Shown piece after piece: positions 8,105-57,264 of a stretch of 64,000 nt of DNA. Within the stretch, counting starts at the first letter, position 1; every line of letters starts with the position of its first letter. This DNA comes from Haliotis asinina (lineage: Eukaryota > Mollusca > Gastropoda > Lepetellida > Haliotidae): positions 51,121,753-51,185,752 of the forward strand of contig NC_090281.1 of assembly GCF_037392515.1 (NCBI RefSeq), given 5' to 3'. The position numbers and the translations under genes were made by a program. The notes beneath the pieces were generated by a model, which saw only the letters and a program-made list of their open reading frames with translations, was not told where the DNA came from and made no database searches.

Positions 8105-8159
8105 AAGAACCACATTATCAGTTGATTTACCGACCTTTATAAATACATACAAAATTTTA

Positions 8160-11009: not shown

Positions 11010-11089
11010 AAGTAATGTGTGCCCGTTCGATGTGGAGATCAGAACTATTTATGTGGCCTGTGAATTGATATCCGCTCCTTCCCCCATTC

Positions 11090-15602: not shown

Positions 15603-15860
15603 TCAGCCTTGGTGTGTAGCTTGGTGAGTCCATATAAGGTAGCTATCAATTCCAGGAAGTATTTTAATTTCACGTCCTTTGTAATGTTGAGTGAGAAAAA
15701 AATCCTTACAAGCATTAACAATGGCTGACATGCATTGCTCACACAAATACCTGCGATTCAGGTCACTACAAGAAAAACACGTCTTATCTGAGGAAAAAAC
15801 CCCAAATATATTGAATGTTCTTGCCAAAACGTATCCCCTTCCTGCTAACGTTTTGAGCAA
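15603..15860 (-). CDS. conserved hypothetical ORF with CxxC pairs (U2)
   Basis: This 85-residue frame starts MLKTLAGRGYVLARTFNIFG and contains CFSCSDLNRRYLCEQCMSAI, a C-x2-C-x8-C-x2-C arrangement. It is found in U1 (10277-10501, different start), U3 (49071-49328), and as a diverged copy near 42415-42620. The diverged copy keeps LLGRGY, SDLNRRYVCKQCM and an open frame but has lost the first CxxC. The plus strand is also open here (YLRFR...EE...YPLP), so the coding strand, and whether it codes at all, is unresolved. Confidence 0.25.
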   Translation of the reverse strand: MLKTLAGRGYVLARTFNIFGVFSSDKTCFSCSDLNRRYLCEQCMSAIVNACKDFFLTQHYKGREIKILPGIDSYLIWTHQATHQG

Positions 15861-17157
15861 TTAAACACTGTGTCTAGTCGATGTAAAGGGTATAAAATAC
15901 CTTTTTCTCATTAAGTGGCTCACTCACTCACTCACTCACTCTTGTGGGTGCACACATCTAAGTATCTTTTTATTTTCACTGATTATTCAGATGATACATG
16001 CCAAAATATGAAAGAACCTCAAACATTTTTATTAGGAGACACCATCCAGGTTTTCAACACACAAACACACAAACCCCACAATAACACGAACAAACAATGC
16101 TTGGAGTTCTGCCAAGGAATGATCTTTCTGATGCTGTGACATGGATCAAATAAAGATGAGGAAATTCCAAACGTCCAGTCCAGAGAAATCAGAAGATATT
16201 CCATTCCATACAAAAATTATACACCCCACCCCACAACACCGATGCATCGCTAATGTGCTTCCTCACATCAAACTGGCTCACTAATGGAGAAAATGTATGC
16301 AAACCACCTATGGAGAGGCAGTGGGTAGCCGTGACCAGACACTTGGCTACACTGGCCAACTGGACACCGAGATGATTTAACAGAAGAATCTTTGAGTTGA
16401 CTTAAAATTGAATAAAGAATACGGAAGTTGTTTTAGGAGGATTTCTGTGACACAGACACTCACACTGAAAATGTTCGTTCGGCTTGGACATGACGCAGTC
16501 TCCAAACAGTATAAAATGGCATGGACTACCCTTGATAACGGTGGTTGTAGTTTCATCGAAACGTCTCTCACATTAATAGTAAAGACGTTGTATAACCATG
16601 GAAATCTCCACCAACTTCTAAATGCCACTCAAAGAGGTCAACTTATGCGAGGCAACTCTAAACGAGGAAACAACCGCACAGGAAGATAATTTACGACTCC
16701 CCACCCCCGAGACGTGACCACCAAATTGCCTATGCCTAGTTCCGAGGTGGAATAGCGCCTTTACAAGACCGTGTCTGCTTCATCGGTGGTAACAACGTCG
16801 AGGACGAAAACTATGTCCTTTCAGCATGCCCTTTATACGAAAACATCAGCTATACACCTTTTAACAATTGTATGCACAACTGCGAGGATTTTACCAGCGA
16901 AAAAATGGATGAGAACTTCATATCTATTTATCTTGCCCTAGCTTTCTATGGTTTCAAGTGACATGCCATGACATTTTAGCCATTGTATTCGCTTTTCACA
17001 AATGCGTATTTATATTCTATATTTTATTATAGATTTGCAGTTGCATGTGTATTTTATGTCTCTCATACATCAGTAAGTTATTGGTTGTAGTTACTTTGTA
17101 TAAATTCTAATACCTATCTATACTTGTGTATGAGACTGCTTCCTCATCAGCAGTTCC

Positions 17158-17405
17158 CGTGAGGATCTGGGGTAGAATAGGCCTTCAGTATATCTTGCTT
17201 GCCACAACTACCCTTGTCGTAAGAGGTGACAAACAGGATCAGGTGGTCAGACTAGCTGACGTGGTTAACACAAGCCATCGGTTCCCTATTGCGCAGATCG
17301 ATGCTCATTCTGTTGATCACTGGATTGTTTGGTCCAGACTCGATTATGTACACACCATCACAACATAGCTGGAATATTGCTGAGTGCGGCGTAAAGGTAA
17401 ACTCA
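17158..17405 (+). mobile_element. SINE (abalone-type) copy
   Basis: It begins GGATCTGGGGTAGAATAGGC and continues with a body containing CAGATCGATGCTCATTCTGT and GATCACTGGATTGTTTGGTC. It ends in the tail TAGCTGGAATATTGCTGAGT and GCGGCGTAAAGGTAAACTCA. I recognise this pattern as a very abundant Haliotis-type SINE from memory; it was not searched. A second copy at the same place in U3 (50394-50645) shows insertion before the U2/U3 duplication. Confidence 0.75.
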
Positions 17406-18174
17406 CTAACCCAGTTGTACACAGCTTAACCTTCCACCTGTGCTTCAGATAAATTCGTCGCTTGGCGTATCACGTGAATCATGGTCACGAAGTTGTAACA
17501 TCAAATGTGAGCTGGAATGATACAGTGACAGAAATAAGCGTCTCCCCTAGCCTTGCTCCAAGCCTGTACTGCATGCTGAACCCATGAGTGTACAGTAATT
17601 CTATCCTTTGAAGATGCAAGTCTTGACAAATAAACATTACTCGACCAGTCTGTTTTAGATATTATCATGTATTATTATTTCTTACATTGTAGACTTATGC
17701 AGGTCTACATCTTCCCGAACAAAACCACTAAGCAGGTTTTGCATTGGAGTGTAATTACTAGCTGCACCAATTGTTACAATACCCTATTATTGTTGAGTTC
17801 TCATTCATCACCTTCACGAATTATTTTCCACTTCAAATATACATATATGTGCTTAATATTGTAAGAGCAACAAACCAACAAACAGAGTTAATAAATTGGA
17901 TATCACTATAGAGGAGGAAGAGCCAAAGTTATACATCTTGGTTTATACAGAAATACAGACTAAATCACTCACTTTAAAATACTATACGCAAAACTCAACG
18001 CTCTTTATTGAAATAGATACTCCATCTTGTGTGACGTGCCTCATAACGCTGTTAAGTTACTAATGAGATTGTGAAATAGGAGTTGACGGGGTACTTGAAT
18101 GCCACGTTTCTATAGCAACAGCACTTGACCTGGATGACGGTATTGTAATGGAATGTATTTTTCACATTCTCTAG

Positions 18175-18240
18175 GATTGACGACGTAATCTGTTGTAAGA
18201 AAAAGTCCTTTAAGGAAGTATGTTCTGTATCACTGAACAC
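18175..18240 (+). other. exon-like block behind a splice acceptor (U2)
   Basis: A pyrimidine-rich tract ending in TTCACATTCTCTAG precedes a frame reading DDVICCKKKSFKEVCSVS. Diverged blocks at 41977 and 61925 have the same acceptor position and encode NYVVICYEDKKPFEEVC and NAGVICSEKRVFEEICQV-stop. The recurring VIC.(E/K)K..F.E(V/I)C pattern resembles the end of an SRCR domain (AGVICSE), but this is too short to assign. The U3 copy starts at 51418. Confidence 0.35.
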
Positions 18241-18473
18241 ACTCAGACAATACATTATAATCGCCACATTGAGATTTAGGTATAAACTGAACTTGATGCT
18301 TCTGCATACATTCATACCTTTAATATGTAAAACGTAAATTCAAACAATATAAACTGTGCCATTATTTACCACTAATAATAACGTACAAAATGTGTTTGTT
18401 TGCCATTTCCAGGTGAGGAGTGGAGGTGCTGAACACTATGTGGTGTGTGTATATATGTATATATTCATATCTC

Positions 18474-18580
18474 GTGTGTGTGTGTGAGAGAGAGGGAGAG
18501 AGAGAGTGTGTGAGTGTGGGTGTGAGTGTGTGTGTGAGTTTGTGTGTGAGAGAGAGAGATAGGGAGAGAAAGAGAGAGTT
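18474..18580. repeat. GT/GA simple repeat
   Basis: Alternating TG and AG dinucleotide runs. The U3 counterpart (51716-51806) is rearranged in length. No gene is seen. Confidence 0.9.
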
Positions 18581-18651
18581 AGTCCCTATAGTATTGTGCG
18601 CTGTCCCACAAGGACATAACGCCCCCAGTCAAAACACCCCCAGGCTAAATA

Positions 18652-19281
18652 CTGCCATGGAAAAAGATCCCTCAATGGGTAGGGAAAACGGCCTTCTGTG
18701 GTTAGATGTAACAAAATGCCAACAACACTTTTTGGATCATATGGATATCTTCTCACATGAATATGTTATTCAAACTATAATATGATATTATAAGTTTTAA
18801 TATTAGCAACATTGGATGACGCCGTTATAATACATGTACAGTTGGATCATTAACTGAAGAGCTACTCCAAACATTAAAGAAGAAAGTAGGAAATCAGGAA
18901 ACACAATTAATTTTCTTTCACTTGATCTCAATACATACTTGTACCTGTCACAACTGACGACAGGAGGAGGAATTGCTCAGAAAACTTCATGTTAACACCC
19001 ATCAACTCAAAATCAACTCAAAGGGTGTTTTATCGTATGGGTGGAATTTTGCGGGGGTTTATTGCCATTAGGTCTGGGGTATTTTGCCCCAGAGTGCTGT
19101 CTGCCCACCGGTGTGTGTACGTGTATTTATACTTTATCCAGCGGTGTGAATACATGTGTGTTGATGTGAATACGTGTGTGTATGTGTGTGCTGCGTAAAT
19201 TTTGTAAATTATGCTGTGATACCTTTGTTCAGTTGGTTGTATTTTCCTTATTCATCTGTAGTTACATGGTTCAGGGTGGAG
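18652..19281. other. unique to copy 1; unassigned repeat ends
   Basis: The sequence is absent from the U3 arm. GACATAACGCCCCC..AAAACACCCC (near 18612) and GGGTGTTTT..TTTGCGGGGG (19023-19055) face each other as loosely inverted CCCC/GGGG-rich motifs, perhaps the ends of an unknown repeat. No gene was found. Confidence 0.3.
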
Positions 19282-22971: not shown

Positions 22972-23128
22972 TGAGTGTGGTTTCAAGCCTCTTTTAGCAA
23001 TATTCCAGCAATATCATGGGGAGGACACCAGAAATAAACTTCCCACCTTGTACTCATGCTGGGAATCGAACCGGGGTCTTCGGCCTAACTTGAGAACGCT
23101 TAATACACTGTGCTACCCCGCCACCCTG
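22972..23128 (-). mobile_element. tRNA-derived SINE, minus orientation
   Basis: The minus strand reads GGTGGCGGGGTAGCACAGTG (A-box region), then a B-box-like GGTTCGATTCCC (23072-23061). It continues with the body and the TTGCTGGAATATTGCTAAAA tail core. It is the same family as 41387-41555. The tRNA-like head is internal Pol III promoter sequence, not a tRNA gene. Confidence 0.75.
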
Positions 23129-23167
23129 ACAAGGTAACTAATAGTCGATCAGTCAAGTTACAAGATG

Positions 23168-23215
23168 TGTGTGTGTGTGTGAGTGAGTGAGTGAGTGAGT
23201 GAGTGAGTGACTGAG
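23168..23215. repeat. (GT)n/(GTGA)n simple repeat
   Basis: A GT run merging into GTGA units, as in the tails of local LINEs and SINEs. Confidence 0.9.
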
Positions 23216-24437
23216 CGATGGGGTGGGGTGTAATTGAGCATCTTGTGAAAGATCGGGCCTACAAGGGTGAAGTGAAAGAAAAGAGAAATATGATCACGAT
23301 CTACTTACCAATGTTGTTGCATATGACATTTTAGAATAGGAATAGGATTTACTGAAACTTGTGGATATATTGCAATGTCATCAAGTGTAAATGCCATTAA
23401 CATCCAAAATAGAAAAATGAAAAATGAAATGCATTTTTACTTGTGTGTCCTTTTCATACAAATTTGCGAAAAGCTACGTAGCTGAATAGTATCTATGTAT
23501 CCTTTAGCTTTTAAACTACTTCTTTCATTAACTGACCAACATGTAATAACAAAGCTGTCCTACTATATCAATTATGCTCTTATTGTACGCCTTATGTACA
23601 ATAAACATCTTTTGACTTTGACTTGCTACATTAAAAATACTTCGTAGAAGAAAGGTATCAGAAAATTGTTTTTATAACTTGTGTGATGAATCATTGTTTA
23701 TCTGGGTACAAATATTGACTTACTTTCTATAAAAAAAAGTCACAATGCTCGGGTGGACACAAAGCACAGTCCCTGATAAACACCTTTGTGACCATTAAAA
23801 TACAATGAATCCAGACAGTAAATACATATGTTCCATTTGGTGAAATGAAATATATACCTCTGTGTAAAATGATTAATTCAACAGTCAGCATACCCCTTTT
23901 ATTCGACTAAAACAGGTGATGTTCAGAGCAAGTCTTATAATTTGCTTTATTGTCAGGATCACAGACGAACATTTGATAGATCGTGATATAAAGTAAATAA
24001 CTCTCACTCATGATCTTTTTGTAAATGTTAACTCGTTCTGATTCCATATGCTTGTTTGCAACACTCTAACAATAGGTCTTGCTATTACGGATATTAATGC
24101 AGGGATATAACTGTCAAACATATGAGACTGTATCTACATTCATTATTAATTCCATTCTAGGTGGGTTTTGAATGACTTGACAATTAACTGGACATTTCAC
24201 AGAAAGGAGGTTCTTCATGTCGGAAACTTAATCCATTCAGAAATGTTTTCTTCCAGCAAATTCAAGATATTGGACTCGGGATGATATTGGATCATATTTT
24301 TTTTTGTCTTTTCATATGAAATACATAGAGAGACACAAATGAATATTAAAAACTCGCTAAAACGTTTGGTACCTTTAAGCGGTTCCAATATGCCAATTTC
24401 CACCTCCCGAATCCTGGCCTAAACAGGCAAAAGACTC
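23216..24437. repeat. 3' flank of gene 1, duplicated at 52190-52915 and 54420-54501
   Basis: From about 23550 the sequence matches the gene 2 arm (AAAGCTGTCCTACTATATCA at 23551 and 52192; CTTCGTAGAAGAAAGGTA at 23640 and 52430). The match resumes next to the stop codon (CAATATGCCAATT at 24388 and 54467). In the second arm the interval is interrupted by a LINE fragment. The duplication therefore carried the gene with its flanks and did not copy the gene alone. No gene was seen at 23216-23550. Confidence 0.7.
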
Positions 24438-27083
24438 TCAGGTATGAACAACTATTAACTGTGAAGAGCATCTGGTCACAGCAAGCTCGACATAATCAAC
24501 TATCTCATTGCCTTGCAATGGACTGCGGATTGGTGGGTCATCGCTAGTGATAATGATCACAATCTTCCTCTCCAGGCCTTGGAATAGACGGGGTCTCGTG
24601 TACAAGACCTGTGTATCTGAACCAAACGCTTCCTCATCAGGTAACTGATTCTCACCCAACTTGTTAACTACTGGGACTTCAAGACATTTGGAAAAAAGTT
24701 CAGTTGGACATTCTGGATCTTGGCGATCATCCAAGATCACCATGTCTGAATATGTCAGTTTTTGGTCAGGGTTTTTAGCTTTTGCTAGCGGATTTTGTGA
24801 CTTTCCTGCTGCTCCTGCCTGGACATTAGTGTACTTTGATGATGATGACCGCTCTAATGCCGTGTGTTGCTGTGTTACTATCTGCTCTTTTAGTTGTGTT
24901 GGTTTGAAACCAAGTTCTATAATCATGCTCTTAAATTCTGTTTCGCACTCTTGACACTGCTGCAACTCTCCTGCTGCATGATCTTTGTGATTAATATGCT
25001 TTGTTTGGGGCCCCCCTTGGAATTCACACATCTTTGGGTTAGCAACAATCTCATGTGGTTTAAAGTAAATCACTTCTTTCCGGCCATGATCTGAATATTC
25101 ACTTTTGTTGACAAACAGAACAGCATCTTTATTTTTGAAAACTATATTGTTACCTGGAATTATCAATGGAATGTTAAGGTTTTGTAGAACCGACAAGCAA
25201 TCGTCTCTACTCTTATGTTTGTCATCCACAATTACAACTATGTCTGACCAAGTGATCCCCTTCTTAGGCGAATCTACTTGGTTTGTTTTTAGCCCAAGCA
25301 TGTCAAAGTGTTTGGTCAATTTTTCCTTAACTTTAGCTAATTCAACAGGATTTTTATCCGGGTACACATAAATTGATTCCTCATTTCTTGGACGAGTTGA
25401 AAGAACGTTTATGACAGATGGGGGACATCTAAGCACTTTGCCCATGAAAACTTTTTCAAAAGAAGGGAAAGAATCTTGAAGACCTTTTGTCAAACATGCT
25501 TCTCTTTCACGACTCATGATACACCAAAACGAAAGATCAGACGGAAAATCTTTGATTAAGTGTTTCAGTTCGTCATCCATATCCACATAGGACGGGAATT
25601 CATCAATTAGAACATGCCTGTTCTCTTCCGTACTCTCTGCCAAGATTTGTTTCAGTTCACTCTGGTTTACGTATTGGTGAAACTTGATTCTAATTGGGTA
25701 TTGACCATGACCTTGAAACAACGCTGGATTCATGTCAAATTTGATTGATTCCTCCAGGACTGGAATAAGAGGTGAATGTCCCATACTTATTATGCAAAGA
25801 CGATTTTTATTTGATTGCCGCAACAGAATCCTTGCTTTGAGTATCAAGAGTACTGTCTTTCCACTTCCATATTCTCCATGGAGGACAAGTTTTTTCATGT
25901 TGCTCTCTAGGACCTCAATTTGTTTAGGAGTTAATACAATGTTCATACGCCTGTTGCCCATCTCTGTGACACTCCCTGACAAATCTCGAATCTGAACTGT
26001 AGATTTGAAACCTATGTATCTTGCAACGACGCGCTTATAGTCATCCAAGGATTTGAACCCTTTGCAATCTTTAATGATACGCTTCCACCACTCACAGAGT
26101 TTGTCTATCCAGCCGTTAGAGTCTTCCGAAGACAGACTGTCATCAAGCAAACATCTCTGCAGACATTCTTGTTGGCAATCTTGGCTATATGTTTCACATT
26201 TGTTATATTTGTGTATTCTCTTGTATGCAGCTTTGTGTGTTTCCTGTGTTAGTTCTTCAAGTGGAATGAATGGTAAAGCAACAATAGGTGTAAATGACAC
26301 ACCAGTTTTGAGGTCTTCAAAGTTTGCCTGTATGAAATCCTTGTCTTTATCCAATTGTGTAATGGCCTTTTTGACACTGTCACTGAGATCTGCGCGTGAT
26401 TTGCAGGCTTTCACCTGTATTGCTATCATTCCAAATGCATAGTGAACAATCAGAATGTCATGTTCACCAGGAATAATTGCACCTGCTCTTGTGTATTTAT
26501 TTACATCTGATTGTGGTTCATTACCTGTCTGGTTGCAAAAGTTTTCATATTTGAAAGAGGTAATGATAAATGCTGGATGATGCTCAGGTACCAAGTGCTT
26601 TAGGAGAAGTTCAATACTATCACTTACACGTGCTTCTGCTGTATCTCCGACCGTATGAGCCTCAGATTCGGTATAGACCTGAATCTTGAAATTGGGGTCA
26701 TTTTGCTTGTCTCTTGTCTGCTTGATTTCTACTGGTTTTGATTTATCATGACCAATGCATACAGGAGGCACTCTGTAGACATTCGTTTCATAATATGGGT
26801 AATATTCTTTAAAAATCCTATTGTAGACTTCATTCGCATCAGCTTGTCCTTTTGATTTCGTTGCATCTCTGACAGTTTGTGCAGCATCTGGTACCCGCTG
26901 TGCTTGGATTGTTTGGGTGGTGTCATCTCGAGCTTGCATTGCCGCGCTCGTTAAATAATTTCCATTTTTGGAGACTTCTGAAACACACTGATTACTTGCG
27001 GAAAGTGATTTGGGTTGTTGAGTTTGTGCTGAAAGGTTTTCATGAGAGGAGCCGTCTTGTGAGGGCGATGGGACAGATGCCAT
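24438..27083 (-). CDS. nuclease-helicase-like protein, copy 1
   Basis: This intact 881-residue ORF lies in one exon (ATG 27083, TGA 24438). Residues 1-95 are S/Q/T-rich and probably disordered. Residues ~146-275 look like a PD-(D/E)xK nuclease: E150 in a helix, GEHDILIVHY (D209), then IAIQVKA (Q223-x-K225). The D...QxK form resembles Mrr-type restriction endonucleases and, more loosely, NERD domains. A Cys-rich stretch (C297, C303, C307, C311) follows. Residues ~384-881 read as a superfamily 1 helicase-like ATPase: LTPKQ (Q motif, Q388), GEYGSGKT (403-410), VLIDEFPS (D494, E495), FWCIMS (motif III), LRCPP (551-555), FQGLE (834-838, motif V) and AVTRCSS (R871, motif VI). C686, H696, H699, H702, C710 and C713 could bind zinc. 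Function is not established; DNA or RNA targeting in innate defence is an inference. Confidence 0.9.
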   Translation of the reverse strand: MASVPSPSQDGSSHENLSAQTQQPKSLSASNQCVSEVSKNGNYLTSAAMQARDDTTQTIQAQRVPDAAQTVRDATKSKGQADANEVYNRIFKEYYPYYETNVYRVPPVCIGHDKSKPVEIKQTRDKQNDPNFKIQVYTESEAHTVGDTAEARVSDSIELLLKHLVPEHHPAFIITSFKYENFCNQTGNEPQSDVNKYTRAGAIIPGEHDILIVHYAFGMIAIQVKACKSRADLSDSVKKAITQLDKDKDFIQANFEDLKTGVSFTPIVALPFIPLEELTQETHKAAYKRIHKYNKCETYSQDCQQECLQRCLLDDSLSSEDSNGWIDKLCEWWKRIIKDCKGFKSLDDYKRVVARYIGFKSTVQIRDLSGSVTEMGNRRMNIVLTPKQIEVLESNMKKLVLHGEYGSGKTVLLILKARILLRQSNKNRLCIISMGHSPLIPVLEESIKFDMNPALFQGHGQYPIRIKFHQYVNQSELKQILAESTEENRHVLIDEFPSYVDMDDELKHLIKDFPSDLSFWCIMSREREACLTKGLQDSFPSFEKVFMGKVLRCPPSVINVLSTRPRNEESIYVYPDKNPVELAKVKEKLTKHFDMLGLKTNQVDSPKKGITWSDIVVIVDDKHKSRDDCLSVLQNLNIPLIIPGNNIVFKNKDAVLFVNKSEYSDHGRKEVIYFKPHEIVANPKMCEFQGGPQTKHINHKDHAAGELQQCQECETEFKSMIIELGFKPTQLKEQIVTQQHTALERSSSSKYTNVQAGAAGKSQNPLAKAKNPDQKLTYSDMVILDDRQDPECPTELFSKCLEVPVVNKLGENQLPDEEAFGSDTQVLYTRPRLFQGLERKIVIIITSDDPPIRSPLQGNEIVDYVELAVTRCSSQLIVVHT

Positions 27084-27139
27084 TTCCCGGATATTAATGT
27101 TATGGCCTGCACACCACGACTGTTGTTTCGAAGCCAGTA

Positions 27140-27172
27140 CGTCTTATAATCATATCTGAAATTGAAAAGGAT
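27140..27172 (-). other. candidate 5'UTR splice acceptor, gene 1
   Basis: On the minus strand CCTTTTCAATTTCAG ends at 27156, about 72 nt before the ATG. Gene 2 has CTTTTCAACTTCAG at the equivalent place (ending 57279), although the exon sequence after it differs. A pyrimidine tract plus AG kept in both copies suggests an intron in the 5'UTR and hence a normal spliced host transcript. Confidence 0.45.
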
Positions 27173-27534
27173 GATCTCAGCAAACATTTTCCAAGTTTGT
27201 ACTTCTACTGTCATGAACAGTTAAAACAAACGGAATACAACACAATTATGAAAATAATTATGTGCGCCTGCATGACAACACTGTGATTTGCATGATACTA
27301 TGTAGATTTAAATGCGGCATAAATCTTGCGTTTATACTGAGCACAGGAAGCTGAAAGTAATCTCATAAAATACAAATGTTCTACAATAAAGGTTTTACTG
27401 ATTTGATTGAACGAACGTTTGGAAATAATCGCGCCTGGACATCGCACAGCAGTGATTGACATAAGCATCGATCAGTCAGTGGGGTCACGAATTGATGCAT
27501 TCACGCATTTCAATAAGTCTGACCACCCAGTCCG
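27173..27534. other. upstream flank of gene 1
   Basis: To about 27430 the sequence resembles the gene 2 upstream flank (AGGAAGCTGAAAGTAATCTC at 27346 against 57470). It may hold the intron and promoter. No TATA-type signal was assigned. Confidence 0.35.
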
Positions 27535-30485
27535 TTGAGTGAGTGAGTGAGTCAATATTAATATAATATCTCAGTCATGTCGTAACGAAAACAATTTATA
27601 CGAGAAAAATGAAGGATATAACCTGTCACGATGGACAGTCAAAATACTAGTGTATGACAGATATGGATATAAAACTAGGAAAAGTAAAATATTCTATTAA
27701 TTAAAGCAGACAATACCAGATAAAACACTGACTATAGATCGTCAACAACTGACGGCAGGCCACCATACTAGGAACCATGGGGACTTACAGTACGTTTGCT
27801 ACCAGCATGGACCCTAGACGGATTTACATAATCCCTTCAGTTGCTGGCGAGTGTAAGGAATGCTAGCCAAAAGTCAAATAACAAGAATACTACGATTAAA
27901 AACTTAACTTAGACTTAAATTCACATCGAATGTTTTGGGACTTACCCTCGCAGGAGGGCAATAATGTTTCAATACGTCAACCCCTTTGAGAGTACAGCCA
28001 CTAGCGATTGTAGTTACTAATCTAAACTACCAATCATTAAAATGCATCTATCTACAGATGATATTACTCAAAATTCAACAATGAAATAAATTTCCTTTAA
28101 AAAAACCCAATATTTTACACTGTTACAAAGGAACAGTGTTAAACAGATCGTTAACTGTTTTTGCAGTAAAGTATTTATCCCTTATGATGGAGAATTCAAC
28201 ACAGTCAAGGGGGATATGCTTGACCGTGACTCTATCATCATAATGAATACAAAACGGCGGATCCTCTCCTTTTAACAGGTATGCATGAGTATATCTTGTG
28301 TGGCTAGTACGACATTTCCGCAAAATGACCTCTTCAAATCATGGACTCATGGTTTCATGTAATTTATTGATACCAACTTGGGTGTCCCACTTCTTTTGCA
28401 TAATATCACTGATGTAAGTTCTAATGATAGCATGTATTAGATACACAGATTTGTTGAGAGCCGCCTTGGCAGCAAGATCGGCCATTGTGTCACCAGAAAT
28501 GCCTACGTGGCTGGGTAACCAACAAAAGGCGACGTCGTATTGGCCAGTAGCAAGATCATTTCATATTACAATTCAATACTTTCAAGTAAAAGTGGATATT
28601 TGCAAGAAATAGTTTTAATAGTCTGAATGGATTATATACTCTTTATGTTTAGGGTGTCTTTGAGAGCTCTTAATATGGCATTTGCTTCAGCTGTGAAAAT
28701 AGAGCTGTTATACGGTAATCTAAAAGATATTGTTCTGGATCCAGTGTGAGTGGCATGTGACTGGACCCATCTGTAAGAAAGGATTTATACTTGCTATATT
28801 TATGTTTAACTTGATGATATTCTTGTTTATATTGTAATTCATTAGTTTGTGATTTTTTAAAATGCAGTTAATGTTAGGTCGACTTGTGGCCTAACCATTT
28901 GCCAAGGAGGATAAAAAAAGAAGACAGGAAGGATCTATATTATCTAGCTCAATGCTGGCAGCAGCAATAAGAGGTTTTATTCGACCAAGTGTCGGAATAC
29001 GAGAAGATTTGTATAAATCCTCATAGAGAGGATTGAAGACACAGTTATATGCAGGGTTTGACTCATTCGAATGTAGTTTTGTTATATACAGTAAAGCTAA
29101 TCTTGTACGTCGCTGCTCAAGAGATGATTCACCAGCCTCGACGTACAGGCTATCAACAGGTGAAATTCGAACGGAGCCAAGTCAAAGTCTTAGACCTTGA
29201 TGATGGACAGAATCTAATAGTTTTACGTTGCTCTTGCAGGCTCCACCACATTTGAGCCATAATCGTGCTTCGAGCGGACAAGTGATATAAAAGTGATATA
29301 AATAGGTGTGAGTCGAAAGTCAGACCAAATATCTTGACCTCCTTGACAACTTTGATGTGAGAGCCATTTAAACATTTTTGGGGCTTTATGTGGTTTATAT
29401 TTAAGCCAGATATGCATGCAATAAGATTTTGATTTAGAACATTTACAGCTGTTTTCAAGACACCATTTATTTATTTCATATATACACAACTGTACTTGCC
29501 GTTCAATAGCATACATATTCTTACAGCGACAAGAAATATTAAAATCATCCACCAAAAGTGATGTATCAATGGAATCATTTAAAACCGTTGGATATGCTGT
29601 TGATCTTGATACTTAAAAAGGCGACAGACAAAATACTGCCTTGTGGAACACCCTGGTCCTAACTGTAATGATCAGACAGGGTAGAACAACGCGGACTTGA
29701 AATTGTCTGTCAGTTAAAAAGTTGGCTATAAACTGAAGCAAACGCCTAGCCTCATATGCCTTTTCAAGGTAAAAAGATAGACACAGCGTTTTTAACAAAT
29801 GATTCCAAACATAATAAGTGATCGGCAGTACTTCTGTTTTTTACGGAAACCACACTGGATATCTGTTATAGGGTATTTTAAGGTATAAGTATTTTTTATC
29901 CACATTACTTCGTTACAGTTCAAGAGGATATATGGGTAGAATAAAATGTTACACATTGCATAGTTAAAAGGCAGACAGTACAATATATTTCGTACTGGAA
30001 ATATCTGAGTTAAACAGCTTCGTTTGCAAGTAGCAAAGCACCAAACAAGTCGATTATTCATCATGCGTGCCATGGTTTTGCAAACGCAGCTAGTTAGTGA
30101 AATAGGCCGATAAGTGGGCGGATCTGTATGATCACATCCAGGTTTAGGAATGGGAACTACTAGAGCGGCACGCCATGAGGGAGGAATTTTACCCGTTGTC
30201 CAAATATCATCAAAAATATTTAAAAGGGTTTCTAGGCAGGATTCTGGTAAGTGTTTCAGGATTTGATAATGTATATTATCAGCCCCTGTAGAAGTATCGA
30301 GAGCTTGATCAAGAGCTGTATGGAGCTCGTGAATAGAAAATAGTTCATTAAAGTCCTCCCCGTTATGTCATCTGAAATTAACAATTTTCTTTTCTTGTTT
30401 TTGATATTGTTGGAATTTAGGCTCATAGTTAGAAGAGGAAGAGTATTTAGCGAGAACTTCACCTAGATCATTTAAAAGTTGAGTT
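27535..30485 (-). mobile_element. LINE fragment A1 (3' half)
   Basis: On the minus strand the fragment runs from the pre-RT region through RT to the 3' untranslated region and an (ACTC)n tail at 27535-27552. Recognisable pieces: VPIPKPGCDHTDPP and YRPISLTSCVCKTM (about 30150-30070), a broken RT core with MVDDFNISCR (motif C, V-D-D, 29555), and the C-terminal IGHTRYTH-like block (28323-28240, here TSHTRYTHAYLLKGEDPP). There are many frameshifts and stops. It is the same family as 34257-40393. Its 5' boundary is at about 30485, where sequence from the endonuclease region abuts it. Confidence 0.75.
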
Positions 30486-30528
30486 AGTCATTGATAAATC
30501 AAGAGCTGAATGTGTTCCAGAACTTGGC

Positions 30529-30882
30529 CTATTTTACAACTTTGATGGGAGTGTCATTTAAAAATATTTCAGGATCTTTATGTGGTTTGTATTTGCGACA
30601 AAAATGTATACAATTAGTTTTGGATTTAGAAAATTTAAAACCGATTTCGAGACACCATTTATCTATTTTATTTAAACACAACTGCAGTTGTCGTTCAATA
30701 GTATGCATATTTTTTCCACGACAAGAAATATTAAAATCATCCACAAAGAGTGATCCATCAACTGAATCATTCAAAACCTTTGATAGACTGTTAATTTTGA
30801 TAGTAAAGAGTGTGACAGACAACATACTGCCTTGTGGGACGCCCTGGTCCTGAGTATAATGGTCAGACAGGGTAGAACCCAC
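30529..30882 (-). pseudogene. LINE A2 reverse transcriptase fragment
   Basis: Contains QDQGVPQGSMLSVTLFTIKI (RT motif B) and GSLFVDDFNISCRGKN (motif C, F-V-D-D), then the thumb-side block WCLEIGFKFSKSKTNC. Truncated on both sides. Confidence 0.8.
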
Positions 30883-31219
30883 GCGTACCTATAAATTGAG
30901 GCAAACGGCCCCGTAAACGAAAATCATGTAAATCTGTTAAGATGCCATGCTTCCATGTCGTGTCATAAGCTTTTTCTAAATAAAAAAAGATTGACACTGC
31001 ATGCTGCTTGTTAATGATGGCATTCTTAACGAATGATTTTTACGAAAACCACATTGTATATTTGTGATTAAATTATTTGACTCTAAATACCAAGTTATTC
31101 GGTTATTGACAATACTTTCCATGGCTATCGGCTATTTTGTTGAGCTCTTCGGGGAATAATTGCACTGAATCAGGAACATCAATAAAATGATCAGGAATTA
31201 ATTTGTCCTTGCAAAGTAG

Positions 31220-31790
31220 TTTGAACAAAGGCCAGTTAGCTCAACTGAAGTTCCATCTGGACGATGGAGGGATATCAGCTGGAGTTATTGCCTGAATAAT
31301 GGTCGAAAAATGATCGCTGCCACACAGATCATTGCAAACTGACCATTAGAATTGCATCACTGCATCAGTGAGTGACAAATCAAGAGAAGAATGTGTACCT
31401 GTACCAGGATACAAATACGTTTTCGAATTATCGTTGAATATACATAGGTCATTGTTTGAAAGAAAATCTTCTAATATCTTCCCATTCCTGTTTGTATTAG
31501 AACTACCCCAAAGTGGATTATGGCCGTTAAAGTCACCCATAATCATACATGGCTTAGGGAGCTGGATACAGCTCCTAAATATCTGTTTGTTGAAGAGTAA
31601 AAGATGGTGATACATAAATAGAGCACACAGTGAAAACAATATTCAAAGTCAGACTGACAGCAACAGCTTGGAGTGGTGTATTCAGGGGGACAGGACTATG
31701 TATAACACCCTACCTCACCAAAGGGGTAGAACCCCCTGTAGCTCTAGGTCCTGGGGGAGAACAATAATTATAAGAATCATATTGCCTTAT
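31220..31790 (-). pseudogene. LINE A2 endonuclease fragment
   Basis: The AP-type endonuclease/phosphatase signatures PKPCMIMGDFNGHNPLWG and THSSLDLSLTD are visible (31570-31350), followed by a degenerate SDHF region. Frameshifts separate it from the N-terminal part. Confidence 0.75.
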
Positions 31791-31813
31791 ATCCATAAGG
31801 CAAAAATTGTTCC

Positions 31814-33219
31814 TTACTCCTCTACAATGCCACTGGATGATGTTGGTTGAGCGGCTCGTGGAGGTTCAATTGGAGTTCGTGATTTGGAGTGGGGTCTAGC
31901 TCCAGTGACTGGGAGTGACGGATTGACCTCCATCTCTAAAGGTTCAAATTGGTTGTGAACCGTAATAGGGGAAGATTCTGAGGAAGGCACCTCGAAATGC
32001 TGGATGGTTCCGGTTCTTTTGGATTGTTTCTTTTCCTTTTTTCCATTTTCTGAAGATTTACTCTGACTCTGTGATTCCCCTGAGATACATTGTGCTACCG
32101 ACGGCAGTGATGTTACAGCCTCTGCCTGAGAAGTTAATGTAGTAGAATGATACATCAATCAGAACCTGAGAAGTCTGAATAGTGTCACTGATTACGACAT
32201 GTTGAGTGACCCAAGACAAGGATCTTTGACATGCGGTTGATGTCATAGGAGGTCTGGAAACAGGAGCTCGAGGAGAGACTGCATTTGAGTATAAAATTGA
32301 TGAAGTGTTAGAAAGGGGAACCAGTTTTCTTGCAGCAAAATACGAAATATTGTTAGTGTGTTTGATTTGTTGGATTTTTGTCTCACGTTCATAAAAAGGA
32401 CAGGATTTAGATGAGGCTAAGTGTTCTCCATCACAGTTGGCACACTTAATGCCATTCGTACACTCGGAAAGTTCGTGGGCACTGCCACAACGGGAACATG
32501 CCGCACTGTTTTCGGCAGAACTTAGCCCCATAACCAAACTATTGACATTTGAAACATCGGAGAGGAGACGGTACATACACCTCCACCCCGATGTTGAAGT
32601 ATCCAGCTTTTACAGACTTTGGAAGAACGGAATGTGAAAAAGTGAACAAATATGTGTTAAGCTTGATTATGGTGCCATCGTCTTTCTTTTTGGAAAAGCG
32701 CTTTACAGCGATGACCCATGGATTGTGAAGCTCATTAACAATATCCTCCTCAGTCATGTCAGAAAGACAATGAGCCGTATCTCTGACAATGCCTCTGCAG
32801 GAATTCAGAGTTCTGTGTACCGTGGCAACAACAGGTGTATTCACAAACTGTTTTAATTTCCACAGATTGTCCGATTGTTGCTTACGAACACATTCCACTA
32901 ACAGAGAGCCATTTCGAAGTCGAGTTACATCCTTAACTTCTCCACAGACTCCGTGAATGCCCTTGGAAATAACAAAGGGGTTCAGTTTGTGAGGGGTTTC
33001 AACAGCAGATGAGATGACAATAAATCTCGGCCACGTGTCAGCTAAGTCAGATGAGCCTTCATCATATGACGAAGATTCGACATGCCGGCGTCTATTCTTC
33101 GATGAACCAGAAGGAATGGAGGTAACCATTATGTAGGAAAAGTGTTCGACAACCCTGCTCCCCACCCACCATGGAGTATCAACGAGGACGGTGTTACAGC
33201 GGAAACCAGTCTGTTGCAC
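31814..33219 (-). pseudogene. LINE A2 ORF1 (gag-like) pseudogene
   Basis: Three overlapping frames reconstruct the order seen in LINE B ORF1. First comes SWPRFIVI..-type sequence with DVTRLRNGSLLVEC, then YVPSPLRCFKCQ, a frameshift near 32550, CSRCGSAHELSEC and CANCDGEHLASSKSC (zinc knuckles), and a basic C-terminal region. It codes for no intact product. Confidence 0.75.
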
Positions 33220-33763
33220 CAGGACTACAGGGATGTTATACTCCAGCCAATAAAAACTTGAAAAGTTGAATCAAACGGAACAAATGCCAGGCTGGTTCGC
33301 CCTTGACACCTTTCTGAAAAAACACAGAATTCAGAGGTCAATGCTGCCAGATTGGCCCATGAGCCACCGCATAGGACTCTAGGCAAGTTAGCACACAAAA
33401 ATTTGTACATTGAAATCCCCAAAAAGCCAAGACCATATAATCAAAGTAACACGTGCAAAAGTATTCACAATGCACAGGGCCTGGCGTGACCAGCCGATTG
33501 ATTGAATCGGCCCGATTCAACCACCCGTCTAGGTGAAGTTAGGGCCAACGTGGTGCGTTGAGCAACAGGAACACGGTTACAGGCCCCTGGTACCCTCAAC
33601 CATCAGGATCCCCTCCTCTAGCGACACAGGGCTGCAACCCACGGCTAACGGGTTGGTGGACCAAATATGCCCCCGGGTCCACAACGGGGGCTTGGCGAGC
33701 ACTTAGCGTTACCCATCACCCACTACGAGAAGGTGGCTCGTCACGAGTGCCTTTTCAAGAGAA

Positions 33764-34244
33764 GCTTAGTAAACTTTAATTCAAATTTACACGTCAGCTC
33801 AATTTATTATTGTTTTTATGATATTGATACATGTATTTGACAAATTGCAGCCTGATGTTTTTCAGTCCTGTCATGGAAAATACAGAAAGATCAGTTCAGT
33901 GATGGAAAATACATCCATATTAATATTTAGCAAGGGTTGTGTCAACTAGGTGTAGAAAACTACAATGGCAAGCACACTAAATAAAAAAAAAACACTTAAA
34001 AACATGTAATTCTATAAAAACTTCATCCCTAATACCGATATGTCAAACAATCCCTGTAATCCTGAGATTATTCTGGGATAAATATTGTAGTCATGTTTGT
34101 ATAAACAATGATAAATAAATCCATATTGTTATTTTTAGATGAAGTGATAATTATGTTGTTTCGAATCAAATGGAAAGTAGATTCGATATTAATATTGGGC
34201 GTAACGTTTGTCTGTTCTATAATGTAAAAAAACATCAAGAGTAA
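33764..34244. repeat. older unit D2, left part
   Basis: Related to U sequence around 9430-9790 (TGCAGCCTGATGTTT at 33847 and 9508; AATCCTGAGATTATTCTGGG at 34057 and 9673) at lower identity. It is separated from its continuation at 40406 by LINE B. Confidence 0.7.
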
Positions 34245-34256
34245 TATTTCACCAAG
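34245..34256. repeat. LINE B target duplication, left
   Basis: TATTTCACCAAG, repeated exactly at 40394-40405. The unfilled counterpart in D1 (near 4667) reads CATTTCACCAAG once. Confidence 0.85.
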
Positions 34257-34812
34257 TGAGTGAGTGAGTGAGTGAGTTAATATTTAACGTCACATCGGCA
34301 ATATTGCAGCCAGATCGTGACGAGAACGAGTAATTATGATAATACAAATGAATTAATAGCACATACATTGTAAAACCCTGTCGACGAGGGACAGTAAAAC
34401 TAACTAGGATATCACAGAGTAGAATGTAAAACTAGTGAATAGACCTAAAACAATGTATCTATAGAGGACACTACAATATAAAAATGAGCTATAGGTTGCC
34501 AACAACTGAAGGTAGATCACCATACTAAGGACCATGGGGACTTACAGTACATTTGCTTCCTGCATGGACCCTAGTTGGATTTACCTCTACCCACCAACTG
34601 TTAGCAATTTAGACAAATCTAGCCATAAAGTAAAAACACACTTATTCTACGATTAAAAACCTGGAAAACTGAACTTTACTTCAAATGTTTTTGGACTTAT
34701 GTACCCTCTCAGGAGGACAATTATTTTACGGTACTTCAACCCCCTTTGAGGGTACAGCCACTAACGATTTGAGCTACTAATTTAATCTTCCAATTTTAAA
34801 ATATTTATCTAT

Positions 34813-52189: not shown

Positions 52190-52999
52190 TAAAGCTGTCC
52201 TACTATATCAATAATAAACGTAAAAGTCTGACATAAAGTTTTGTAGATCCATTATGTTTTACTACTTGTACATAATTTACTGTCTCTATCACGATTTTGC
52301 TGTTTACATCACTAATTACTACATATTGCACCATATGTACAATGTTTCATATGTTAAAGTCCAATGTGTATGGGCCGAAGGCCTCTTGAACAATAAACGT
52401 CTTTTGACTTTGACTTGATACATTAAAATACTTCGTAGAAGAAAGGTAACAGAAACTTTTCTATAACTTGTGTAATGAATCATTGTTTATCTGGGTTCAA
52501 AAGTTGACGTACTTTCTACAAAAAAAGTCACAATGCTCTGGTGGACACAAAGCACAGTCCCTGATAAACATTTTTGTTACCTTTGAAATATGCACAATGA
52601 ATCCAGTCATTAAATACATATGTTCATTTGGTGAAATGAAGTATATATTTGTGTCGAATGATTAATTCAACACTCAACATATCCTTTTTATTTGACTCAA
52701 ACAGGTGATGTTCAGAACAAGTCTTATGCTTTGCTTTATTGTCAGGATCATGGATGAACATTTGATAGATCGTGATATAAAGTAAATAACCCTCACTTAT
52801 GATCTTTTTGACAATGTTAACGTGTTCTGATTCTATATGCTTGTTTGAAACACTCTAACAATAGGTTTTTCTGTTACGGATATTAATGTAGGGATGTAAC
52901 TGTCAAACAGATGAGACTTGGTGGTGGGGTGTAAAATTGAAGATTTCACATTTGGGAACGCATTTCTTTAATCAAAATATTTAGTAACAAAACGAATCT
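52190..52999. repeat. 3' flank of gene 2 arm
   Basis: Homologous to 23550-24120 until about 52915, where foreign sequence leading into LINE fragment C begins. Confidence 0.7.
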
Positions 53000-54015
53000 T
53001 TAGCAAAATTGAACGTTTTGGGTTTACATACCCTCTCAGAAGAACAATAATTTTACGATACTTTAACCCCCTTTGAGGATACACCACCAACAATATCAGT
53101 TGCCAATTTATAATACCAAGCATTAAAATACATCTATGTACAACACATATTAATAAAAATTCAATCATGAAATCAATTTCTTTAAAAAAAATATAATTAA
53201 ATGAGAACTAACACTGGTAAAAAGAGTTTTGATATTGAAATATTTAACCCTTGTGACGGAGAATTCAACACAGCCAAGCAGGATATGCTTCACAGTGACT
53301 CTCTCATCACAAGGGATACAAAACGGAGGACTCACACACTTTTTGCATGGGTATATCTGGTATGGCCAATACGACATCGTCGCAAAATAACCTCTTCAAA
53401 TCTGGACTGACAGCCCATGTAGGTGTAAACAATATACGGTTTTATTCCATGCAATTTATTTATACCTACTTGGGTGTCCCATTTCTTTTGCATCAGATCG
53501 CGGATGTAAGATCTAATACTAGCTTTGTAACCGGAGTATGGAATAAGAAGTGGTGTCACAGATTTGTTGAGTGCTGCCTTGGCAGCAAAACTGACCATAG
53601 TGTTCCCAGAAATTCCTACGTGGCTGGGTAACCAACAAAAGACGATGTCGTATTGGCGAGTAGCAAGATCACTATACAATTCAATAACTTCAATTAAAAG
53701 TGGATGTTTACAAGAAATGTTTTAATCACCTGAAGGTAAGAAAGAGAGTCTGAATAGATTATATATTGTTTATGTTTTGGGTGTCTTTCAATGTATTTAA
53801 GAGCGGTTAATACAGCGTTTGCTTCAGCTGTGAAAAAGAGCTGTCGTCCGGTAATATGGAAGAGATTGTCTTGGACCCAGTGACTGTGGCACAAGCCACA
53901 GCCCCATCATCCTTGGATCAGTCTGTGAATAAGGATTTATAGGTACTGTATTTACTTATCACTAATTGGCAAGGAGGAGAAGAAAGTAAACGGGAAGGAG
54001 CGGTATTTTCTAGCC
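53000..54015 (-). mobile_element. LINE fragment C (RNase H to 3'UTR)
   Basis: The minus strand has FTAEANAVLTALKYIERHP and YIIYSDSLSYLQVI (RNase H), QYDIVFCWLPSHVGISGNT (the last RNase H motif), IGHTRYTHA and HILLGC blocks, and part of the 3'UTR. It lacks the (ACTC)n end and everything upstream of RNase H, and has a ~95-bp internal deletion near 53945-53970. It supplies the intact codon (CCA) opposite the LINE B stop at 35377. Confidence 0.8.
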
Positions 54016-54420
54016 ATCAATAGTTTAGACTCACTAGTGTAACTGTACCCACTTACTTCAGTCAACTGTTCCAAAATAGATTTTGCAAAATATTCCAGAT
54101 TGTAAAGGGAACTGTTTACACTGATGCGAGTTCATAATGTTTAAAATGTTTTGTCACGAGTTCAATAAATGATGAAATTCGGTGAATTCTTAACAATACT
54201 TTACCCCCTAAACGCAGCTATTCATATGCACGATGTGTACACATGCTTAACAGCAATTTGATGTATGATCCTCGAGTAGTTCATTTGCTATAGGTTTGCA
54301 GTGGTTTCCCCTAAGTAAGTGGAGACATGTAACCACAGATATACATCAAGTGCTTTAACTAAGTGTTTTGATGGGTAGAATACTTTTATGAATTTTTGAA
54401 GGGGTCATGGTCTCTTCATA
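54016..54420 (-). pseudogene. diverged piece of the U-unit RT remnant
   Basis: TAGTTTAGACTCACTAGTGT (54026) and the AGATTTTGCAAAATATTCCA block match U1 8810-8890 with many changes. It is an old fragment placed between LINE C and gene 2. Confidence 0.5.
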
Positions 54421-54501
54421 TATAGAGAGATATGAAGGAATAGTAAACACCCACTGAGCGGTACCAATATGCCAATTATGTGACCTAAAAACAAAGCATA
54501 C

Positions 54502-57237
54502 TCAGGTATGAACAACTATTAACTGTGAAGAGCATCTGGTCACAGCAAGCTCAACATAATCAACTATATTATTGTCTTGCAATGGACTGCGGATTGGTGG
54601 GTCATCGCTAGTGATAATGATCACAATCTTCCTCTCCAGGCCTTGGAATAGACGGGGTTTCATGTACAAGACCTGTGTATCTGAACCGAACGCGTCCTCA
54701 TCAAGTAACTGATTCTCACCCAACTTGTCAACTACTGGGACTGCAAGACATTTGGAGAAAAGTTCCGTAGGACATTCTGGATCATGGCGATCATCCAAGA
54801 TCACCATGTCTGAATATGTGAGTTTGTGGGTAGGGTTTTTAGCTTGTTCTAGCAGATTTTGTGACATTCCTGCTGCTCCTGCCTGAACATTAGTGTATTT
54901 TGATAATGATGACGGCTCTAATGTTGTGTGTTGCTGTGTCACTATCTGCTCGTTCAGTTGTGGTGGTTTTAAACCAAGTTCTATAATCATGCTCTTAAAT
55001 TCTGTTTCGCACTCCTGACACTGTTGCAACTCTCCTGCTGCATGACCTTTGTGATCAATATGCTTTGTTTGGGGCCCTCCTTGGAATTCACACATCTTTG
55101 GGTTAGCAACAATTTTATCTGGTTCAAAGTAAATCACTTCCCTCCGAACAAAACCTGGAGATTCAGGTTCGCTGACAAACAGAACAGCGTTTTCTTTGAT
55201 AAAAGCATTAACATCAGTCAGAGTGGTCAGTGGGATGCCCAGCTTATCTAGAAATACATAGCAATGTTCTCTATGTTTGTGATTTTTATCCACAATTGCA
55301 ACTATGTCTGACCAAGCGATCCACTGCTTTGGCGAAACAGTACAGACCTCTTTACGATTTGTTTGTAGACCAAGCTGTATCAAGTGTTCGGTCATTTTTT
55401 TGTTATTTATAGTTGATTCAATTTCTTTGTTTTTCGGGTACCTAAGAATAGTATGATCATTTCTTGGACGAGTTGGAAGATGCTTTGTGACAGACGGGGG
55501 GCATCTAAGCACTTTGCCCATGAAAACTCTTTCAAAAGAAGGGAAAGAATCTTGAAGACCTTTTGTCAAACATGCTTCTCTTTCACGACTCATGATACAC
55601 CAAAACGAAAGATCAGACGGAAAATCTTTGATTAAGTGTTTCAGTTCGTCATCCATATCCACATAGGACGGGAATTCATCAATTAGAACATGCCTGTTCT
55701 CTTCCGTACTCTCTGCCAAGATTTGTTTCAGTTCACTCTGGTTTACGTATTGGTGAAACTTGATTCTAATTGGGTCTTGACCATGACCTTGAAACAACGC
55801 TGGATTCATGTCAAATTTGATTGATTCCTCCAGGACTGGAATAAGAGGTGAATGTCCCATACTTATTATACAAAGACGATTTTTATTTGATTGCCGCAAC
55901 AGAATCCTTGCTTTGAGTATCAAGAGTACTGTCTTTCCACTTCCATAGTCTCCTTGGATGACAAGTCTTTTCAAGGTGCTCTCTAGGACAGTAATTTGTT
56001 GAGGAGTTAATACAATGTTCATACACCTGTTGCCTATCTCTGTGACACTCTCTGACAAATCCCGAATCTGAACTGTAGATTTGAAACCTATGTATCTTGC
56101 AACGACGCGCTTATAGTCATCCAAAGATTTGAACCCTATGGAATCTTTAGTGATACTCTTCCACCACTCACAGAGTTTGTTTTTCTTGCAGCCATACACA
56201 ACTGTATTTTCAGTCTCTGTTTCACAGTCTTTCGAAGGTAGATTGTCATCAAGTAAACATCGCTGCAGACATTCTTGCTGGCAATCATGGCTATATGTTT
56301 TACAATTGTTATAATTGTGTATTCTCTTGCATGCGTTTTTGTGTGTTTTCTGTGTCAGTTCTCCAAGTGAAATGGAAGGTAAAGCAACAATAGCTTTAAA
56401 TGACACACCAGTATCAGGGTCTTCAAAGTTTGCCTTTATGAAATCCTTGTCTTTTTCCAATTGTTTAATGGCCTCTTTGACACTGGCATTGGGGTCTGAA
56501 TGTGATTTGCAGGCTTTCACCTGTATTGCAATCATTCCAACTTTATAGTGAACAATTAGAATGTCATGTTCACCAGAAATAATTTCTTCTGCAGCTACAG
56601 CTGCATCGTTCTCTCCAGTGTAATTGTTAGTATATCTATTTTCATCTGACTGTGGTGGATTACCTGTTTGGTTACAAAAGTTTTCAAATTGGAAAGAAGT
56701 AATTATAAATGCTGGATGATTCTCAGGTACCCAGTGATTGAGGAGATATTCAATACTATCACTAACACGAGCTTCTGCTGTGTCCCCGATGGTATGAGAC
56801 TCAGATCTGGTATAAACGTGAAACGGGAATCCAGTGTACTCTTGCAAGCTTTCTGATTGCTTGCTCTTTGTTTGTTTTGAGTTGAGACGACTAATATGTA
56901 CAGGAGGCACTCTGTAGACGCGTTCCTTATAATTTGGGTAATATTCTTCAAAGAACCTATTGTAGGCTTCCTTTGCATCAGCATGTCCATTTGGTTGGGT
57001 CGCATCTCTGACAGTGTGTGCAGCAACTGGTACCCTTTGTGCTTGGATTGTTGGCGTCAGAGTACTATCATCTGGTGACTGATTTGTCTCGTCAGTTAAG
57101 GAATTTCCATTTTCGGAGACCTCTGAAACGCACTGATTTTGTGTGGAAATTGAGGAACGTTCGTTGGGTTGTTGAGGCTGTCCTGCAAGGTTTCCATGTG
57201 AGGAGTCTTCTTGTGAGGACGGTGGAACAGATGCCAT
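54502..57237 (-). CDS. nuclease-helicase-like protein, copy 2
   Basis: An intact 911-residue paralogue of the protein at 24438-27083, in one coding exon (ATG 57237). The nuclease-like motif is GEHDILIVHY (D225) with IAIQVKA (Q239-x-K241), preceded by a 16-residue insert absent from copy 1. The ATPase has LTPQQ, GDYGSGKT (429-436), VLIDEFPS (D520, E521), FWCIMS, LRCPP, then FQGLE and AVTRCSS at the C-terminus. All catalytic-type residues are conserved, which argues for selection on both copies. The segment between the RCPP motif and the Cys/His region (about residues 590-705) differs from copy 1 in sequence and length, while Walker A to RCPP is nearly identical in DNA. Family and function are as for copy 1 and not experimentally known to me. 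Confidence 0.9.
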   Translation of the reverse strand: MASVPPSSQEDSSHGNLAGQPQQPNERSSISTQNQCVSEVSENGNSLTDETNQSPDDSTLTPTIQAQRVPVAAHTVRDATQPNGHADAKEAYNRFFEEYYPNYKERVYRVPPVHISRLNSKQTKSKQSESLQEYTGFPFHVYTRSESHTIGDTAEARVSDSIEYLLNHWVPENHPAFIITSFQFENFCNQTGNPPQSDENRYTNNYTGENDAAVAAEEIISGEHDILIVHYKVGMIAIQVKACKSHSDPNASVKEAIKQLEKDKDFIKANFEDPDTGVSFKAIVALPSISLGELTQKTHKNACKRIHNYNNCKTYSHDCQQECLQRCLLDDNLPSKDCETETENTVVYGCKKNKLCEWWKSITKDSIGFKSLDDYKRVVARYIGFKSTVQIRDLSESVTEIGNRCMNIVLTPQQITVLESTLKRLVIQGDYGSGKTVLLILKARILLRQSNKNRLCIISMGHSPLIPVLEESIKFDMNPALFQGHGQDPIRIKFHQYVNQSELKQILAESTEENRHVLIDEFPSYVDMDDELKHLIKDFPSDLSFWCIMSREREACLTKGLQDSFPSFERVFMGKVLRCPPSVTKHLPTRPRNDHTILRYPKNKEIESTINNKKMTEHLIQLGLQTNRKEVCTVSPKQWIAWSDIVAIVDKNHKHREHCYVFLDKLGIPLTTLTDVNAFIKENAVLFVSEPESPGFVRREVIYFEPDKIVANPKMCEFQGGPQTKHIDHKGHAAGELQQCQECETEFKSMIIELGLKPPQLNEQIVTQQHTTLEPSSLSKYTNVQAGAAGMSQNLLEQAKNPTHKLTYSDMVILDDRHDPECPTELFSKCLAVPVVDKLGENQLLDEDAFGSDTQVLYMKPRLFQGLERKIVIIITSDDPPIRSPLQDNNIVDYVELAVTRCSSQLIVVHT

Positions 57238-57264
57238 TTTCTGGATATACCTTTAGCCTTTACG

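Follow-up and report, generated by a model that had tools for sequence, protein, structure and literature searches.

We report here a gene family of the gastropod Haliotis asinina whose members join a nuclease of the NERD type to a motor of helicase superfamily 1 (SF1), and which is almost certainly homologous to bacterial proteins with the same fusion. Two members lie on contig C2 of the genome (1.14 Gb, 159 contigs) within a stretch of 64,000 nucleotides, C2:51121753-51185752, which is called the window in what follows. They are open reading frames (ORFs) of 881 and 911 amino acids, their proteins are 73% identical, and neither has an internal stop. This fusion of NERD nuclease and SF1 motor is familiar from bacteria as an architecture of the defence type. 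We regard the animal genes as probably constituting a molluscan family of DNA-surveillance nucleases, with a NERD nuclease and an SF1/UvrD-like ATPase motor, that is related to the bacterial defence-type proteins; that the protein itself acts in defence or in DNA surveillance seems to us an evenly balanced question.

The nuclease and motor of the six family members

A protein search of the H. asinina genome added four members, giving six open frames, all of them on contigs C2 and C7. The additional frames have 1679 codons on C2 and 912, 1265 and 972 codons on C7, or about 1659, 907, 1245 and 969 amino acids respectively when counted from the first ATG. A second search with the 969-residue member returned the identical six and none further, and the count is to be read as a lower bound. 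Long frames of 881 and 911 codons are common to diverged copies, and so, judged from their sequences, these frames are not products of chance. None of the six contains an internal stop, and pseudogenes were rejected on this ground. A bacterial contaminant or prophage was likewise rejected, in view of the chromosome-scale contigs, the retroelement-like neighbouring frames, the acceptor-like sites described below and a coding guanine-cytosine (GC) content of 40% against 37% for the window (40-43% over the four frames measured). The initial annotation had the coordinates and lengths of the two window paralogues right; it did not state the minus strand, and it spoke of two genes where the genome holds at least six such frames.

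By sequence and predicted structure the N-terminal domain is a PD-(D/E)xK nuclease, and its sequence places it with NERD rather than with Mrr. Glu150, Asp209, Lys225 and Gln243 (numbered as in the 881-residue protein) are invariant in all 34 rows of an alignment of animal and bacterial sequences, and thus the active-site E, D and (D/E/Q)xK of the superfamily are all present. The residue pattern of NERD (PF08378) is also found, including the Gln downstream of the xK strand, as in the nucleases of bacterial NERD-UvrD proteins. An AlphaFold2 model of residues 136-345 (predicted local distance difference test, pLDDT, 80.1; predicted template modelling score 0.81) has the alpha-beta-beta-beta-alpha-beta core of PD-(D/E)xK enzymes, and among the 50 PDB entries listed for it such nucleases predominate. 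The initial annotation had read the motif GEHDILIVHY...IAIQVKA, which is indeed present in both ORFs, as the QxK form of an Mrr-type endonuclease, and had allowed that its proposal would fall if no PD-(D/E)xK fold were predicted. The fold is predicted, with matches as described. QxK is the typical form of Mrr-type enzymes and is accepted as active in other PD-(D/E)xK enzymes; it occurs in four of the six family members, the other two having the usual ExK. Mrr-type endonucleases share the superfamily and the QxK form with the animal family, which goes with NERD in its residue pattern, in the conserved Gln243 and in the domain to which the nuclease is fused. We dropped the Mrr assignment on the residue pattern, on Gln243 and on the profile match to bacterial NERD-UvrD proteins given below.

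In the motor, the motifs LTPxQ, GxxGSGKT, DE, RCPPS, GLExK and LAxxRCxSQLI are invariant or nearly so throughout the family, and every member has the Walker A, DE, motif IV Arg, motif V GLE and motif VI Arg of SF1A/UvrD motors. It is likely from these motifs that the motor binds ATP. Every member has an insert of the form H-x2-H-x6-9-C-x2-C that lies between motifs IV and V (in the 972-codon member the alignment program MAFFT places H-x-H, and the x2 spacing takes the preceding His). The slightly wider pattern H-x2-H-x5-10-C-x2-C is found in 6/6 animal rows and 0/28 bacterial rows, and the insert may be a zinc site.

Relationship to bacterial NERD-UvrD proteins

The evidence for common descent includes a profile-profile comparison. 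The animal alignment (A2) matched that of 28 bacterial NERD-UvrD proteins (A3) with a probability of 98.7% (E 3.1e-16) over 249 columns, which extend from the first nuclease helix to past Walker A. When the match was split, the nuclease alone gave 94.8% (E 5.3e-8), the motor 96.4% (E 1.2e-9, 66 columns) and the C-terminal piece, which holds motifs V and VI, 83.6% (E 8.2e-6). Controls, which were made for the nuclease part only, consisted of one reversed and three column-shuffled profiles and gave 0.1% each (E 0.56-0.8). A hidden Markov model of the bacterial proteins matched all six animal proteins in collinear pieces, with E-values that refer to tiny sets; the first of these pieces starts downstream of the active site in the 1265-codon member. 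The Pfam NERD and UvrD models were both above cut-off in the three bacterial rows tested. These results support the earlier suggestion of a nuclease fused to an SF1-like motor in an animal, and make its relatives the bacterial NERD-UvrD proteins that are listed among defence genes (PADLOC PDLC03813, RTasNERD-Hel; PDLC01087, C3a187 'NERD+UvrD').

The two groups have in common the order of nuclease and motor, the invariant E, D, (E/Q)xK and Q of the nuclease, and a collinear series of LTxxQ, Walker A, DE, motif IV Arg, GLE and motif VI Arg. They differ in length, the animal frames having from 881 to about 1660 residues and the bacterial ones about 540-850, and the animal proteins have long N-terminal tails (two with 32-residue repeats), the H/H/C/C insert and no motif III. 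In two of the bacterial proteins (L131 and L137) the place of the RNT seen in many others is taken by RCPPG or RCPAG, which recalls the RCPPS of the animal motor. The animal members are very distant: in the tree they form one group, with support of 100/100, whose branch has a length of 2.27 changes per column. Because of the long branches, the odd letter composition of all six animal rows and a midpoint root placed for drawing only, neither a donor nor a direction can be read from this tree.

No close bacterial donor was found in the collections searched. With the animal profile nothing was confirmed in a collection of genome contigs, and with the 1679-codon member there was no match in plasmids; among 398 genomes of one phylum the profile gave four weak motor-only matches, one of which (in genome G221) lies inside a NERD-UvrD protein. 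A viral origin was considered and rejected, as searches that reach near relatives only found none in viral contigs with the queries P0001 and L014 or the animal alignment, and none in phages with the query P0002.

Other defence systems resemble the family in part. Hachiman (HamAB), in which, according to PMC12278908, a helicase senses damaged DNA and then unleashes a nuclease, has the same logic of sensor helicase and effector nuclease, and a HamA match was listed by PADLOC for the 911-residue protein (E 2e-5) and for its C7 copy (1.4e-3), with none listed for the remaining four members. Hachiman, however, consists of two proteins with an SF2 motor, and the match covers residues 121-172, that is, the first helix without D..QxK; membership was rejected. 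Nhi and AbiO gave weak PADLOC matches to the motor (E 0.003-0.02) in the 1265- and 972-codon members that span the Walker A region only. The Schlafens of group III (SLFN11/13/14) have an SF1-like motor, weak PF09848 matches were found in four of the six members, and SLFN14 was top in Foldseek for a poor full-length model (pLDDT 48) whose structure matches carry little weight. The nuclease of the animal family is PD-(D/E)xK, unlike that of Schlafens, and Schlafen membership was rejected for the lack of any Pfam match to the Schlafen core RNase domain (AlbA_2) at E up to 1 in the six proteins.

Duplication and genomic setting

The two window genes belong to a duplicated unit of 3.5-4.9 kb (Table 1). 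Identity between them is 96-100% in 90-nucleotide windows starting at residues 401-521 and 56-98% elsewhere, and synonymous divergence (dS) is 0.012 over residues 411-545 against 0.26 over residues 1-410. Residues 401-545 thus look like a tract of gene conversion. Purifying selection acts on the nuclease, for which the ratio of nonsynonymous to synonymous change (omega) is 0.51 (0.32-0.87).

Table 1. Features of the two window genes and their surroundings (window positions)
Feature	Position	Strand	Basis
ORF of 881 amino acids, NERD-type nuclease and SF1-like motor	24438..27083	-	
NERD-type PD-(D/E)xK nuclease domain, about residues 146-345 of 881	26049..26648	-	AlphaFold2 model, PDB comparison
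Glu150, active-site Glu on first helix, invariant	26634..26636	-	
Asp209 of GEHD, invariant	26457..26459	-	
Q223-V-K225 (QxK; ExK in two of six genes)	26409..26417	-	
Gln243, invariant in animal and bacterial rows	26355..26357	-	
SF1-like motor, residues 376-881 (LTPxQ, Walker A, DE, RCPPS, GLE, LAVTRC)	24441..25958	-	
Walker A GEYGSGKT, residues 403-410	25854..25877	-	
Conversion-like tract, residues 401-545, 96-100% identical to paralogue in 90-nucleotide windows	25449..25883	-	
H699-x2-H702-x7-C710-x2-C713, putative zinc-binding insert between motifs IV and V	24945..24989	-	
Acceptor-like site (pyrimidine-rich and CAG), ending 72 nucleotides before the ATG of the 881-residue ORF, in-frame stop between	27156..27175	-	sequence only
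ORF of 911 amino acids, paralogue of the same architecture	54502..57237	-	
Nuclease domain of 911-residue paralogue, about residues 151-371	56125..56787	-	alignment
SF1-like motor of 911-residue paralogue, about residues 402-911	54505..56034	-	alignment
Duplicated unit, copy 1, gene and about 0.85 kb of 3' flank	23589..27094		self-comparison
Duplicated unit, copy 2	52381..57248		self-comparison

Of the 64,000 window bases, 37,343 have a counterpart on contig C7, in inverted orientation and with an identity of no less than 96%; window positions 1-18154 and 43908-64000 pair in this way with C7:50745500-50799500. The longest block of the window without such a match, 18155-43907, includes the gene of 881 residues. 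The 911-residue gene and its C7 copy differ by a dS of 0.002, and the 1265-codon gene stands opposite the 1679-codon gene with a dS of 0.32. The matches between C7 and C2 suggest a recent duplication between chromosomes or, alternatively, a haplotype that was misplaced in the assembly. In the latter case the 912-codon gene of C7, and perhaps the 1265-codon gene, would be alleles, and four or five distinct genes would remain.

That the region is recently duplicated, as first proposed, is borne out by the self-comparison and the C7 matches, and it contains many retroelement-like frames. Several frames in window 28444-39827 look, by eye, like pieces of non-long-terminal-repeat retroelements (zinc-knuckle gag, endonuclease, reverse transcriptase) and have related copies. 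RTasNERD-Hel is encoded next to a defence reverse transcriptase (DRT), whereas the reverse-transcriptase-like ORFs of the window resemble, by eye, non-long-terminal-repeat retroelements. Large near-identical duplicated blocks with CATA-type microsatellites, in which long pieces are up to 98.8% identical, occupy 5252-18652 and 43827-51881. Around other loci we noted about 2.4 kb open in five frames (L016:2218-4707, a trinucleotide-type repeat) and a frame like a Tc1/mariner transposase by eye (L021:2230-3237). At C2:96255865-96318095 there are 16 matches to the haemocyanin beta-sandwich family PF14830 (E 6e-42 to 1e-29) in two runs of eight, and none of 14 control genomes has a match. PF14830 is a molluscan family, and the two runs suggest two eight-unit gastropod haemocyanin genes; by these matches the genome has a molluscan look.

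Within the gene family, the 1679- and 1265-codon members contain a coding tandem repeat of 96 bp, which specifies an acidic unit of 32 residues. There are about 20 copies in the former (L011:4708-7162) and about 11 in the latter (L013:1883-2907), the copy number being unequal between C2 and C7. The 1679-codon member has in addition an 81-bp unit in about 8 copies, and the 1265-codon member alone has a hydrophobic C-terminal stretch, as judged by eye.

The genes had been described as single-exon, which holds for the coding part. In all six copies an acceptor-like site (pyrimidine-rich, YAG) ends 41-74 nucleotides upstream of the ATG, and the interval contains an in-frame stop, as against a background of 211/5000 random window positions with such a site 30-90 nucleotides upstream, and for this reason an intron in the 5' untranslated region is likely. 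The six sites are related and so are not six independent cases.

Possible function and its alternatives

A motor-gated nuclease is proposed by analogy, because Hachiman works in this way and because the NERD domain occurs in defence systems: PMC10952713 names Mokosh type I and Nhi-like systems, and PMC12839542 names PglW of type-2 BREX. The motor would load on or recognise aberrant nucleic acid such as ends, single-stranded gaps, and invading or retroelement DNA. An ATP-driven change in the motor would then release the metal-dependent nuclease, which would cut that DNA. We infer this coupling of sensor and effector from the analogy, and with it catalysis, DNA as the target and a role in defence. 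It is also conceivable, though we put it forward tentatively, that a bacterial-type NERD-UvrD defence protein has turned into an expanding mollusc family of innate-immune effectors, in which the H/H/C/C module and the variable regions would give recognition and the motor would license the nuclease on foreign or retroelement DNA.

Several results weigh against a surveillance nuclease of bacterial defence type. No Pfam family was above cut-off in any of the six proteins; NERD was listed for two of them only (E 0.013-0.014, 16.3 and 16.5 bits against a cut-off of 22.1), and NCBIfam listed no family for the two proteins tested. The nuclease model, which was built with bacterial rows, had no Foldseek match with E below 0.001, and the full-length model from six rows was the poor one mentioned above, so that the motor is assigned from its sequence. 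PADLOC listed RTasNERD-Hel for five members, matching the motor only and not the nuclease; the 881-residue protein did not match that model even at E up to 1 and had GajB (9e-4) as its top PADLOC match, followed by weaker ones. Over the whole H. asinina genome the RTasNERD-Hel model gave three weak motor matches (E 0.003, 0.013 and 0.069), at a limit so loose that 4/14 control genomes also have matches; two are family members (2/6) and the third is another SF1-like frame on C15. The latter (L023, C15:14835853-14836146) is an SF1-like motor fragment in a 322-codon frame with no Pfam match at E <= 0.01. Regarding selection, residues 546-690 have an omega of 1.05 (0.66-1.78), compatible with relaxation rather than an arms race; neither this value nor that of 2.44 (0.74-9.20) for residues 346-410 demonstrates positive selection. 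Finally, the Gln of motif II (DExQ) and motif III (D..Q), near-invariant in the bacterial rows, are kept in none of the six animal members, which read DEFP, DEVP or DECP and WCIMS, WAIMS or WIVIA in their place. Contrary to what had been supposed, the SF1 motif set is thus not complete, although its FQGLE and AVTRC are present. Since motif III is lost, unwinding is doubtful, and the motor may act as a switch or as a translocase instead of an unwinding helicase.

The same losses, together with the presence of QxK in 4/6 members, might indicate a protein that has gone further and become a nucleic-acid-binding switch, its nuclease or motor degenerate, which only binds or signals. This we think quite unlikely: the four active-site positions of the nuclease, Walker A, DE and both arginines are invariant even in members 32-38% identical to the 881-residue protein, and QxK is an active form in other enzymes of the superfamily. 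A nuclease-helicase of nuclear or mitochondrial DNA repair or end processing, with a logic like that of Dna2 or RecB in which the motor locates breaks or flaps for the nuclease to trim, would have the same parts list of nuclease and SF1 motor and would also account for purifying selection on the nuclease. Of such a housekeeping factor without immune role one would, however, expect few copies and strict conservation; the six frames, the recent duplication, the conversion-like tract and the rapidly changing middle region make it an unlikely explanation. It is very unlikely that the genes are domesticated from a mobile element or DNA virus and kept or spread with the surrounding repeats. Their single coding exons do stand amid many retroelement-like frames and duplications, but all six frames are confined to two places, and viral contigs and phages yielded no near relative. 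Inverted repeats around the two window genes (4 short imperfect pairs in 23000-28200 and 10 in 51900-58300) include no pair that brackets the gene in both copies, and terminal repeats of an element were rejected on this ground.

Among open-licence papers we found no account of a NERD-SF1 fusion in an animal, annotated animal proteomes being outside the scope of this search. Several immune genes of animals, among them cGAS, viperin and the Schlafens, have counterparts in bacterial defence against phages. If the proteins described here are active, H. asinina would have an animal enzyme that destroys DNA under the control of a motor, encoded by a recently duplicated family. Should the more tentative view of them as immune effectors prove true, they would give animal immunity a branch that destroys DNA and stems from bacteria, alongside cGAS, viperin and Schlafen.
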